Of a stretch of DNA of 64,000 bases, positions 48,392 to 62,925 are shown piece by piece. The notes under the pieces are model-generated. The model worked only from the letters and a program-made list of their open reading frames with translations. It did no database searches and was not told the DNA's origin. The stretch comes from Ascidia mentula (Eukaryota; Chordata; Ascidiacea; Phlebobranchia; Ascidiidae). Position numbers and translations under genes: made by a program. How positions within the stretch are numbered: position 1 is the stretch's first letter; each line of letters opens with the position of its first letter. Location: assembly GCA_947561715.1 (NCBI GenBank), contig OX387201.1, positions 22,024,001 to 22,088,000 on the forward strand, read 5' to 3'.

Positions 48392-51300
48392 ATGAAGGTG
48401 TGGATCAGTGTTACCCTACTGCTCGGGATTGCTGGAACTGGATGGTCACAAATCGACTTCACATTCGATTGTTCAAGCAACGCGGTCGCAATAACGTGAG
48501 TAAAAATGCAAGGTTTTAAATACAAGATGAATCTATAAATTTTTACAACAATTTGGTCTTTTCCACTCACAAGTTCACCTGCAATTATCGGCCCAATTTA
48601 AAGACTTTTAATTAACCGACAAACGATAAAAATGTCAAGTTGACGCTTTCAAAATTTGTGAGAAACGTTTGTGGCAGAGAAAGGTTAATGCATTTAATGT
48701 TTGCAGTCTACGAGAAGCCTACCTTAACACATTTGTCACACTCCCTGTTCGTTCCGTGTTCTTCATCAAGCCCGGGGATGACCTGCACACCATCATAACC
48801 ACCGGATCACCGTCATCACCATGCAGCACCACAGATACAGGCGATTACTTGGCAGCAACCTTCGATAGTTTCCAGGAATGCGCGTATTCGACCGTGGTAA
48901 GAAATATTAACTGGTTTCGACCCAAAAGTGATTTATTCAGTTGGAAATCTTGGTCAAAGCCTAAATTTAAACGTATGTAGGATATTCCGTTGGGTGGCGC
49001 AGTGCACACCTGGTACGATTTTGGGGGTGTCCCCAAAGGGGTTCCGCGAAATTCCTTGAATAAATGTAAAGAGTTCCGTGGGTTGTTATCAAGAAAAACG
49101 TTTAGGATTACCTGAAGTTTCTCAAATTTGGGGTTCCTTGGAATCTCAGCTAACTCGGTAGAGGGAGCAAGAGATTTGTAACAGACCGAGTTGCAAAATT
49201 TTTATTTCTTCTCCAGCAAACTGGTGGAACAATCACATTCCAATACAAAGGAATGCTCATCACTACAAACAATGGAGTCGTCGACAGGGATTCAAGACAT
49301 TTCTTCACTTTCGAGTGCGTTTACGCTGACACTTACGATCTCACTGCTGTTCCATTCCAACCATATCTAGCGTAAGTAGAGGAAATATATTATAAGTTTC
49401 GAACACGACGCGTTCATTTAATTCCACCTCACTTTTGGTGACTGATGTTTTCGGACAGCAATAAAACGTGGGAAAGTCCCTTTATTTCATCATTAAGTGG
49501 TTTCATCGTGTCTATGGGTTCGACAACCTGTGGGTTCGGAGCCGCATGGGGCTCTTCTATACCCACTGTTATCGATCCGTAGAGTCGATAAACTCATTTA
49601 CAAAAACAACTATAATGCAAATAAATAAGATTTTAAGTAAGTAATAGTGACGCTTGTTAACAGCAAATAGGTTTCAAATTCACTAATTGTGAGTGCTGTA
49701 AGGGGTCAAAATAATCCAACCAACTTAAGGGGTCAAAATAATCCAACCAACTTAAGGGGTCAAAATAATCCCAACCAACTTAAGGGGTCAAAATAATCCC
49801 AACCAACTTAAGGGGTCAAAATAATCCAACCAACTTAAGTTTTGTGTCTCCCAACATGTTTTAACTTGGTTTAAAAAGAATGTATTTGACTTTCTGAATA
49901 GCAAATGTTGCTTACCGCTGGTCAGTTCTGAAACATTTGAATTATTCGCAAACTGCCTTTGGAGTCGCCCTCAATTCATTCCTAATATCTTGAAGCAAAT
50001 TGCTGGTAACGTGACGTCACTTGAATGCAGGAATTTCTTCTCCTCCGACTCGGCGTCGGCCACCCTCACCCCCACCCTCTCACTATGGAGTGACAGCGGT
50101 TTCAGTGTCCCACTGCCAACTGACCGGGGAATCCCCACCACCGATACCGTCTACGTGCAGATTGAGAGTCACAATATATTCCTCATCGAGGTGGGGTTAA
50201 CTGGGTTCACAATTGGTCATATGAGACGACGCGAATTTTGCCAATTTTATTTAGAAATGATGGTTTATATTCGCCACATAATGACGTGCTTTTGTATCAG
50301 AAATTATTTGCAATATTAGTCCTGGGTTTTAATTTTAATGAGCGTTCACAGAAAAGGCATTGTAGCTTTGGGTTGTTGTACTTCGCGAGTTATATAACTC
50401 AACTACCAGGTTATTGGTTCAAGATCTACCAGTTTTCCAGAATTACTCGAACCCTGTCTACAGTCTGTAACAATTACTATGTTCCAGGTTGTCAAATGTG
50501 CCAGTTCCCCGAGCGACACTTTAGGGTTTGTTTCCGAAACAGTTCTTATTGTGAATGACATGGCGATGAGTGGGGCCGCGATCATCCAACAAGACATGAG
50601 TGTCTTCAAATTCTCATTCCCTCCACAGTTCGGCCACTTCCAGAACCTTTACGTGGTTTGCGAAGTTCAAATTTGTGACACGGTCGCTTCTGGAGCCACA
50701 TGCTTGGTCAGTGCTTGCTTCGAAGTTTTTATTTAACTTTGACTCAAAATCCCAACATAAAATTTAGAATTATCTGAATATTGTCTGACGCTTGAAAAGG
50801 GAACAAATTGTCCATTTTAATTGATGCTAGTCAGTCGATACGCAACATTATCGCAATGGAATGAAAATTGTTTTATAATTTTGAGTTACGATGTAAACTC
50901 TATTTCCCAAGATAAACATTTTCAAAGACATCAATATTGGATTCCCAAACACAAAATTAAACTCTTTTAATAACATGGGTAAAAAAAATCCATAATTTCT
51001 GCAAGAATCTGATGTCAAATAATCAACCATTGGTTTCATGCAACAATTAGAGAAACGTGATTTTGACATTTTTCAGGTTCGTCGCAAACGAAGCGTTTCC
51101 GTAAAGTTGGTGAAAGATGACAACGAAAGGAAAACTTACATTCTGTCGACTTCATACAGCGTGGAACCATCCCCCGACCAATCACAAGAAAGCAACCAGA
51201 TCGCACCAGCTGATGTGGTTCCTCGCAATGAACAGGTTGACGCAGAAGAAGTGGAAGAAAACACCAACCCGATATCAGAAACCATCCAAAACTCCAACCC

Positions 51301-52069
51301 GATATCAGAAACCATCCAAGACACCAACCCACAATCAGAAACCATCCAAGATACCAACCCGGTATCAGAAACCATCGAAGACACCAACCCACAATCAGAA
51401 ACAATCCAAAACTCCAACCTGGTATCAGAAACCATCCAAGACACCAACCCACAATCAGAAACTATCCAAAACTCCAATCCGTTATCAGAAACCATCCAAG
51501 ACACCAACCCACAATCAGAAACCATCCAAGACACCAACCCACAATCAGAAACTATCCAGGATACCAACCCACAATCAGAAATCATCCAAAACACCAACCC
51601 ACAATCAGAAACCATCCAAGACACCAACCTGGTATCAGAAACCATCCAAGACATCAACCAGGAATCGGAAACCATCCAAGACACTAACCCGGAATCAGAA
51701 ACCACCACGACTACGAAAGCAGCGACGACGACAGAAACCACCACGAAATCAACAACAACCGAAACCACAACGACCAGGAAACGACCATCTCAGGTTGTAA
51801 ACCACACCCCGAAAAAAACAACCAACGGCAACAACGGTGCTTCGGTCATTTCTCGTCCCCATGGCAACACCAGCGGTGACGTCAAACACGCGTCCGATGA
51901 TGTAATGTCGCGTTTCGTCACTTACGTCACGCAAGCGGAGATGGTGTTTTACCTTGCCATTGGTCTGCTGGTTCTCATGGTCATTGTTATGATGGTTGCT
52001 ACTTACAAGAGGTGCGTGGGGAAAAAGAAGGTTGCCAGAGTCGGTGAAAATGTTTGGGGAAAAAACTGA
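48392..52069 (+). CDS. ZP-domain type I membrane protein with a decapeptide repeat
   Basis: ZP-domain proteins polymerise into extracellular coats after release by furin-type cleavage. Exons 48392-48495, 48707-48896, 49217-49371, 50031-50190, 50488-50706 and 51077-52069 give 606 residues. The N-terminus is a signal peptide (MKVWISVTLLLGIAGTGWS). Exons 2-5 carry paired cysteines and a ZP-like end (FQNLYVVCEVQICD, GATC). RRKRS at about 278-282 is a consensus furin site just after the domain, as in ZP proteins. Then come 14 copies plus a partial one of a 10-residue unit (consensus NPQSETIQDT, about residues 340-485), a Thr/Glu-rich stretch, a transmembrane helix at about 565-585 and a short basic cytoplasmic tail. 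The signal, cleavage site and membrane anchor are clear; the ZP assignment rests on cysteines and layout, as I see no strong family motif. Exon 1 to exon 4 borders are the weaker part of the model. Confidence 0.8.
48985..49190. mobile_element. SINE-like segment in an intron of the ZP gene
   Basis: Contains GGTGGCGCAGTGCACACCTGG-type sequence and an A-box-like AGCTAACTCGGTAGAG, typical of tRNA-derived elements. It is GC-richer than the surrounding intron. Ends and target duplications were not resolved. Confidence 0.35.
49461..49582 (+). CDS. Possible alternative terminal exon of the ZP gene
   Basis: After an acceptor ending ...TTTTCGGACAG an open frame continues in the phase left by exon 3. 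It encodes about 41 residues (NKTWESPFISSLSGF, then TTCGFGAAWGSS) and ends at TAG. Used as a last exon it would give a short secreted protein lacking the repeat array and the membrane anchor. No good donor in the phase needed for exon 4 was found, so it is not a normal internal exon. It may be chance. Confidence 0.25.
49700..49836. repeat. Minisatellite, five 27-28-bp units
   Basis: Units begin at 49700, 49727, 49754, 49782 and 49810, each starting AAGGGGTCAAAATAATCC. Units three and four have one extra C. The near identity suggests recent expansion; the array is in an intron of the ZP gene. Confidence 0.9.
51266..51703 (+). repeat. Coding tandem array, 30-bp unit, 14 copies plus a partial one
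   Basis: Each unit encodes ten residues, consensus NPQSETIQDT, with variants NPISETIQNS, NPVSETIEDT, NLVSETIQDT and NQESETIQDT. The unit length is a multiple of three, so copy changes keep the frame. The array is hydrophilic, has no Cys and is rich in Ser, Thr, Glu and Gln, forming a stalk between the furin site and the membrane anchor. Confidence 0.95.
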
Positions 52070-61976: not shown

Positions 61977-61982
61977 TTTATT
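61977..61982 (-). terminator. Poly(A) signal of the peptide precursor gene
   Basis: AATAAA on the minus strand, 107 bases past the stop codon at 62089. Confidence 0.6.
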
Positions 61983-62088: not shown

Positions 62089-62925
62089 CTAGTTGATAGA
62101 AGTTTCGTTTATGACCTCAGAAAGGACTTTGTCGTCAATCTTGCCAAGAATGAGAACGTAAGCCGACAGATCCGGAGCGTCAGAGGATGGTAGAGTGTCG
62201 GCTTCCAATGCGGCAGAGTCAGCACCTGATCTTTTTTCCGGGGTTTTCTTGGCAGATTTTGTTCCGGAATTTCTGTCAAATAAAAGTTTTCTAAATTGAA
62301 AGAATATAAATAACTTTTCGAACAATGACCAATTGGACACTTCAAGCCAGGAAAATCCCCCCCCCCCCAATCTTTAGTTCCCGCGCAAATATCGCCTTCA
62401 ATCCAACAACATTTAACTTAAACAAATCTTAACCTCATCTAACCTCAACACTTACGTCAATCCATTTATCAACACTGTTTTAAATATTCCAGAACCGCAG
62501 TCACCAGCTGCACTGATGAGACATTATAGGTTAAAACAATGTGTTTGTAAACCAACAAATTTCTTCTTACCGTTTGCCGATAATGTAGGTGAGGAATTTT
62601 CGCATTGCTGCCTGGTTGAACGAGTTCGACTTAATCTGGGTCGCATAAGATTGCGAATATCTTTTCTCGGGCGTACTGAAATCTGCTGAGTCACCATTCT
62701 GCTCCAGCGACGCAAGATTGCTGAATAAGCAATATCCAGTTAAATTAAGGAGGATTTTTGTGCCCATAGGTTCTAGTTTTAAATTTTAAATTTGTAATCA
62801 TTTTTGATGAGTCATGCTTACGTCAAAATCCGGGCTTCTTCGTCTGTAATTTCCCGGTTGACTGAAGCCGATGTTCCAGTTTGAAAGTTTACGAACAAAA
62901 CAACAACAAGAATCATTTTAAACAT
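62089..62925 (-). CDS. Secreted neuropeptide-type precursor, candidate PACAP/VIP/GHRH-family ligand
   Basis: Three exons (62925-62822, 62720-62571, 62272-62089) splice in phase to 145 residues. Residues 1 to about 20 are a signal peptide (MFKMILVVVLFVNF). Residues 56-82 lie between Lys54-Arg55 and Gly83-Lys84-Arg85: a 27-residue peptide with a C-terminal amidation signal, beginning YSQSYATQ and ending QAAMRKFLTYII. PACAP-27 is also 27 residues and amidated. Aligned without gaps, Q16, A18, basic 20, K21, aromatic 22, L23 and aliphatic 26-27 agree with PACAP/VIP, and Y1, T7, Q16, R20, K21, L23 and I26 with GHRH. The usual Phe6 and Asp3 are missing, so the family call is tentative. A second PEKR site (residues 96-99) opens another segment ending AYVLILGK (122-129). 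Each putative peptide has its own exon, as in vertebrate PACAP genes. A prohormone role is well supported; the family is not proven. Confidence 0.7.

Follow-up and report, generated by a model that had tools for sequence, protein, structure and literature searches.

A three-exon locus in the genome of the phlebobranch ascidian Ascidia mentula appears to encode an amidated peptide hormone, and this hormone is, with somewhat better than even confidence, a relative of the PACAP/VIP/GHRH/glucagon ligands that has evolved fast and would act on class B1 receptors. The locus (C69:22086089-22086925) lies on the minus strand of a 64,000-nucleotide stretch of assembled DNA (hereafter, the window). The original prediction, made from the letters of this stretch, took the animal to be a Ciona species; it is A. 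mentula, whose assembly kaAscMent1.1 has been published in a paper that also lists a poly(A) RNA run, ERR10378036 (PMC11109543). In the parts available of two papers, published searches of tunicate genomes or transcriptomes report no secretin-family homologue (PMC7251081, PMC2880984), and Cardoso and colleagues specifically report no PACAP homologue there (PMC7251081). Release of the A. mentula assembly, in 2022, came later than the Cardoso study. PACAP cDNAs have been described from the tunicate Chelyosoma productum, with 27-residue peptides 85-96% identical to human PACAP; they are doubted because genome searches found no homologues (PMC7251081, PMC2880984). Unlike those cDNAs, the candidate gene has diverged strongly and is part of an assembled genome. 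A mass-spectrometry atlas published in 2025 covers 23 Ciona neuropeptides; in its available text, PACAP, secretin, CRF, and calcitonin have 0 occurrences each (PMC12441681).

Materials and methods

The A. mentula sequence searched comprised 195.8 Mb in 79 contigs, which is 1.1 Mb and 16 scaffolds below the published kaAscMent1.1. Signal peptides were called by eye, and the receptor queries were assembled, also by eye, from exon translations. Statements credited to cited papers refer to the parts of those papers that were available.

Reference hormone sequences were entered by hand. In the anchored test, the 27-mer was compared without gaps with 12 peptides, including PRP, in a register fixed at the cleavage sites, and 20,000 shuffles of the 27-mer were scored. 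The family profile was made from 11 vertebrate secretin/glucagon peptides, with PRP left out. The profile rank was judged against a null set of 159,267 open 27-mers, all distinct, taken from 341 kb of the animal's own genome, namely the window plus 58 loci; many of these loci, L032 and L033 included, were picked on account of a match to a GPCR or a hormone, and some overlap, and the 341 kb are not a random sample.

Results

Gene model and precursor

Three minus-strand exons join in frame into an open precursor of 145 residues, with two GT-AG introns of 101 and 298 nt, both in phase 2 (Table 1). The precursor reads, in order, leader, KR, the 27-mer YSQSYATQIKSNSFNQAAMRKFLTYII, GKR, and a C-terminal flank. 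Exon 2 has the acceptor TTATTCAG/CAA and the donor CG/GTAAG (the slash marks the exon border) and translates as NLASLEQNGDSADFSTPEKR-YSQSYATQIKSNSFNQAAMRKFLTYII-GK(R), or, with the spacer written out, (T)NLASLEQNGDSADFSTPE-KR-YSQSYATQIKSNSFNQAAMRKFLTYII-GK(R). The full translation of exon 3 is NSGTKSAKKTPEKRSGADSAALEADTLPSSDAPDLSAYVLILGKIDDKVLSEVINETSIN, followed by the stop codon.

Table 1. Features of the candidate peptide gene, in window coordinates.
Feature	Position	Strand	Basis
Exon 1: start codon, putative signal peptide MFKMILVVVLFVNFQTGTSA, then SVNREITDEEARIL; donor AC/GTAAGC, phase 2	62822..62925	-	Frame and splice sites
Exon 2: 150 nt, phase 2-2; spacer, KR, 27-mer, GK and 2 bases of Arg	62571..62720	-	Frame and splice sites
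KR cleavage site ahead of the 27-mer	62660..62665	-	Sequence
27-residue peptide YSQSYATQIKSNSFNQAAMRKFLTYII, predicted C-terminal amide	62579..62659	-	Translation
GKR amidation and cleavage site	62570..62578	-	Sequence; last base swapped for first base of exon 3 upon splicing
Exon 3: C-terminal flank NSGTKSAKKTPEKR... through stop codon; acceptor TTTGACAG/AAA	62089..62272	-	Frame and splice sites
AATAAA, possible poly(A) signal, about 110 nt past the stop	61977..61982	-	Motif match only

The original prediction had described a 27-residue block between KR and GKR, and the span given for it coincides exactly with exon 2; the block is as described. The signal peptide assigned to the same precursor is likely there too, as the leader MFKMILVVVLFVNFQTGTSA, but it is placed in a separate upstream exon and not within that span. 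Left unspliced, the exon 2 frame has an upstream ATG of its own, with an alternative leader beginning MGTKILLNLTGYCLF, and meets a stop straight after GKR (CGG TAA). The donor CG/GTAAG links exon 2 in frame with exon 3. The upstream exon is favoured over the unspliced leader MGTKILLNLTGYCLF on the ground that the splice sites of this exon fit the reading frame.

The general features of an amidated neuropeptide precursor are all present in the model, namely a putative signal peptide, dibasic sites, a glycine as amide donor, and an open spliced frame. As in the secretin family, a peptide of about 27 residues lies between dibasic sites within one exon of a signal-peptide precursor, in a gene model built from sequence only. 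It is very likely that the locus encodes an amidated peptide precursor. That it is a chance open stretch with no expressed gene is highly improbable: exon 2 is stop-free in one of its two other frames as well, and openness alone is therefore weak evidence, but three exons joined in frame by consensus splice sites, the stops in frame 0 of exons 2 and 3, and a hydrophobic leader and paired processing sites in the right order all argue against chance. Intron phases of vertebrate family genes for comparison were not found in the open papers searched.

Seven of ten open frames picked from the neighbouring sequence matched Pfam (ArfGap, FHA, Myb, oxysterol-binding, eIF3h twice, and kinase). We know of none among these that neighbours a vertebrate secretin-family gene, and the neighbours were set aside as support for family identity. 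Elsewhere in the window, a 348-residue open frame at 51023-52066 (+) was seen by eye to hold a repeat like NPQSETIQDT and a Thr-rich stretch, with a hydrophobic segment close to its C-terminus; it had no Pfam match.

Likeness to the secretin/glucagon peptides

The 27-mer resembles the PACAP/VIP/GHRH group, in register, better than chance. In the anchored test, 1 of 20,000 shuffles attained the PACAP score and 1 of 20,000 the VIP score (p 5e-5 each). The p values were 1e-4 to 7e-4 for GLP2, GLP1, human GHRH (2e-4), PHM, and chicken secretin. Human secretin gave 8e-4, while glucagon, GIP, and rat GHRH gave 0.00125 to 0.0018 and PRP gave 0.007. With the register left free, offset 0 was picked by 10 of 10 secretin/glucagon ligands (p 0.0013 to 0.047, z 1.9 to 3.9), which is not ten independent tests because the ligands are related to each other; PACAP gave p 0.0013 (z 3.88) and VIP p 0.0022. 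By the same measure, five true family pairs range from z 3.1 (PACAP-GIP) to 7.2, and the candidate-PACAP pair stands at 3.9.

Against the full profile, the 27-mer ranked 1 of 159,267 open 27-mers (z 5.03, 4.4 bits), mostly through its C half, against a null of random reading frames that is lenient for an amphipathic helix. The original prediction had aligned the C half with PACAP and GHRH in this same register, and the anchored, free-register, and profile results all bear the alignment out. Scored whole against parts of the profile, it was exceeded by 1 of the 159,267 with the PACAP-like part and by 13 with the glucagon-like part. For the C half, 1 of the 159,267 scored higher with the full profile, 5 with the PACAP-like part, and 206 with the GCG-like part, and the conserved helix pattern of positions 16-27 is present in register. 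The N half is weak, with 2,548 of the 159,267 scoring higher (full profile). Blocks preceded by KR or RR and followed by G[KR] number 12 in the 341 kb, the candidate included (4.4 bits), and the runner-up reached -22.8 bits. Scaled to the genome, this gives about 7,000 blocks, among which a rank of 1 in 159,267 would be expected by chance in about 0.04, with a null that consists of random frames from non-random DNA. Each of 17 control peptides, taken in its best register, scored below the candidate (TIP39 -5.4, the best control; PTHrP -8.7; CRF -17.4); the candidate's 4.4 bits compare with 31-59 for left-out vertebrate members and 25.4 for human PRP in register.

Among 19 other peptides in the free-register comparison, 17 gave p > 0.05, and galanin, NPY/PP/PYY, CGRP, orexin, ghrelin, and other unrelated peptides were rejected at z 1.1 or less. 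The two below 0.05 were PTHrP (p 0.0015) and Drosophila DH44 (p 0.046). PTHrP reached z 3.98 (offset 1), the top of the 29 peptides and slightly above PACAP at 3.88. This score, level with that of PACAP, makes a PTH-type role conceivable, in which the peptide would be a ligand of the PTH-receptor relative L044 (see below) and not of secretin/glucagon-group receptors. The genome has this PTH-type receptor, and a search for a PTH-family locus (PF01279) found none, an empty answer that does not amount to absence. PTH (z -0.94) and TIP39 (z -0.30), however, did not match, and the length of 27 residues and the GKR site are secretin-like; the PTH ligands of vertebrates are longer and are not known to be amidated. 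We consider a PTH-type ligand improbable.

DH44 (z 2.0) raises the question of a CRF/DH44-type peptide. These are likewise amidated helical class B1 ligands with an ...RK..II-GK end, and the candidate end RKFLTYII-GKR resembles RKLMEII-GK, the end of CRF. CRF/DH44 peptides are about 40 residues long, however, with an SLD..FHLL core; the 27-mer is short for CRF, lacks that core, and gave z 1.3 with CRF itself. The genome also holds a separate CRF-type gene elsewhere, which makes CRF-type identity unlikely in its own right. The original prediction had named a CRF-like match as an example of what would count against it, and we give the CRF alternative the least credence of all. The CRF/DH44-type precursor is one open frame on contig C67 (C67:6124483-6124602, plus strand; L059 1267-1626), with a leader, KRRRAQLSLDISLHILSGMMVRARNEERRAMQKAQAQANRVHLQRIGK, and a stop. 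It scored 24.9 bits against a Pfam cut-off of 22.1 (E 0.005), and control genomes gave one match, below the cut-off. A CRF/DH-like peptide is listed for Ciona (PMC7481443).

Residue pattern and structure model

Positions scoring positively are Y1, S2, Q3, T7, S11, Q16, A17, A18, R20, K21, F22, L23, I26, and I27. Seven of 27 residues are identical to human PACAP-27 (26%), or 18% over the 38 residues of PACAP-38; the figure reported for the amphioxus PACAP/GCG peptides is 10-15% of PACAP-38 (PMC7251081). The N-terminus had been called diverged, without Phe6 and Asp3. Both are indeed missing, as are His1, Tyr10, and any acidic residue at position 3, but this end is less bare than claimed, for Tyr1 (GHRH, GIP), Ser2-Gln3 (glucagon), and Thr7 match family members. 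The absence of the N-terminal motif is a serious point against membership, but the amphioxus peptides, with their low identity, are reported to keep Phe6 in one of three (PMC7251081).

A single-sequence AlphaFold2 model gave one helix over residues 3-27 (mean pLDDT 74.7, pTM 0.34), a result compatible with any helical peptide. For residues 13-27 the hydrophobic moment was 0.29, an ordinary size (0.22 to 0.62 in five family members), and its direction of 191 degrees was closer to GHRH and GLP1 (212 and 214) than to PACAP and VIP (265 and 263).

Database searches

The search with a secretin-family profile that had been proposed as a check came back empty: Hormone_2 (PF00123) matched neither the precursor nor the peptide at E up to 10, and no other Pfam family did so. 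A whole-genome search with Hormone_2 gave two weak places elsewhere (E 3.3 and 9.0), the candidate locus not being among them. One of these, L032, was rejected as a secretin gene after no dibasic-flanked block was seen in the three frames read. At L033 1438-1590 (C73:3338081), YESESYQRHVSKVLSTKVAKEFVNSFKR had a glucagon-like score without a preceding dibasic site or a clear acceptor or exon borders, and was judged a chance match. Queries with the PACAP and glucagon peptides returned nothing from the genome at E<=10, nor did PF00214 and PF01279, and in all four cases an empty answer is not equivalent to absence. No PDB chain matched the peptide, no relatives were found in prokaryote contigs, and the peptide's letters were not found in the open papers searched.

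These searches and the missing Phe6 and Asp3 bear on the main rival reading, in which the peptide would be a lineage-specific ascidian amidated neuropeptide without secretin descent, with a convergent helical C-terminus and a class A or other receptor. The family signal lies mostly in a short amphipathic C half, no Pfam family matched, and various Ciona-specific peptides have been reported in Ciona (PMC7002689). Against such an origin stand the common register in 10 of 10 family members, the first rank among the open 27-mers, and a length and GKR site as in lamprey PACAP (PMC3434177). On balance we regard it as unlikely, although of the rivals it deserves the most attention.

Class B1 receptors

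The original prediction held that class B receptors have relatives in tunicates, and at least five class B1 receptor genes were found in A. mentula (L044, L045, L047, L048, and L058). L044 is PTH-type, with PTH1R as its best PDB matches (4.5e-45), L045 is calcitonin-type, and L047 is CRF-type. L048 belongs to the secretin/glucagon group, with 5vai_R (an unnamed chain) at 2.6e-51 and GLP1R at 7.2e-51, then GLP2R, VIPR2, and the secretin receptor, and PTH1R at 2.9e-46. L058, found with the L048 query, matched 5vai_R (3.8e-30) and GLP1R (7.4e-29), and its group is less certain because GIPR, VIPR1, the secretin receptor, and PTH1R (5.5e-28) follow closely. L048 (C72:16.60 Mb) and L058 (C72:19.48 Mb) are on the minus strand of one chromosome, about 2.9 Mb apart. 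The TM2 motif LR...VKD is kept in L048; L058 retains only LR.

L046 and L049 looked adhesion-receptor-like by eye, and ten 7tm_2 loci (L002, L004, L007, L012, and L051-L056) matched the class B1 queries weakly at most. Loci L044-L049 cover 7 of 12 HRM matches, and part of at least 153 7tm_2 matches was covered. The count of five is a lower bound because the remaining 7tm_2 matches and 5 of 12 HRM matches lie outside this coverage. Numerous 7tm_2 matches are clustered on C2 at 0.4-7.8 Mb, with more tandem groups on C1, C69, C70, C71, and C73; the clusters are local expansions of class-B-like receptors. A comparable receptor set with duplicates, 8 genes in all, has been described in Ciona (PMC1764030, PMC2396169), where GCG-type receptors are expressed in the intestine, gonads, and neural ganglion (PMC1764030). 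The copper-monooxygenase domain common to PAM and related enzymes (PF03712) had 52 matches in the genome, and PAM was not distinguished among them.

Discussion

The in-frame exons with consensus splice sites, the cleavage and amidation motifs, the in-register likeness, and the receptor genes are directly supported. The original prediction of a PACAP/VIP/GHRH-like ligand is borne out as far as a better-than-chance likeness goes; it falls short in that Hormone_2 does not match, the N-terminal hallmarks Phe6 and Asp3 are absent, and PTHrP scores level with PACAP. Since the candidate fails two membership tests, the Pfam profile and the N-terminal hallmarks, it is described here as a variant and not filed as a member.

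The candidate shares with PACAP-27, VIP, and GHRH the length of 27 residues, the amidation site, the KR and GKR flanks, and the register, together with Q16, A18, K21, L23, and hydrophobic residues at 22, 26, and 27. It differs from them in lacking His1, Asp3, Phe6, and Tyr10, with 7 of 27 residues identical to PACAP, VIP, or human GHRH. Unlike PACAP-like genes, its three-exon model carries one such peptide, and no PRP- or PHI-like partner was seen there. With the glucagon/GLP/GIP peptides it shares Ser2-Gln3 and Thr7 (glucagon), Tyr1 (GIP), and Phe22, but it is identical at 3 to 5 of 27 positions. Glucagon and GIP are not known to have an amidation site. The pairing of PACAP-27 length with an amidation glycine, part of the original prediction, has a precedent in lamprey PACAP, where 27 residues stand next to a GKR site and the dibasic sites also match (PMC3434177).

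The amphioxus PACAP/GCG peptides, set beside the candidate by description only, are also low-identity peptides of an invertebrate chordate, with 10-15% identity of peptides a-c to human PACAP-38 (PMC7251081). Peptide b is reported to carry Phe6, the only one of the three to do so, and peptide c to carry Tyr22 (PMC7251081). In contrast to the candidate, they have 32-33 residues, three peptides per gene, and a functionally characterised receptor (PMC7251081).

We infer transcription, processing, receptor pairing, and descent, and propose the following course. The precursor would enter the secretory pathway, a convertase would cut at KR and GKR, and a carboxypeptidase would trim the end before PAM amidates it, to give a 27-residue amidated peptide. 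The peptide would form an amphipathic helix. Its C half (Q16, A18, R20, K21, F22, L23, I26, and I27) would dock on a class B1 receptor at the extracellular domain, with L048 or the less certain L058 as the likeliest partner, and the diverged N-terminus (YSQ..AT) would trigger the receptor core. That the peptide works as a class B1 ligand is fairly likely, judged from its letters, and descent from the PACAP/glucagon family is plausible. More tentatively, and short of an even judgement, this may be the first tunicate ligand of the secretin/glucagon receptor group to be backed by a genome, with the docking helix kept, the N-terminal motif rewritten (the aromatic residue at 5 and not 6, and Gln3), and L048/L058 co-evolved.

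The candidate turns the presence of this hormone family in sea squirts, close relatives of the vertebrates, into a testable question. If the peptide activates such a receptor, it would help to bridge amphioxus PACAP/GCG and the vertebrate hormones, and, if true, it would show the extent of the drift that the N-terminal activation motif can undergo.
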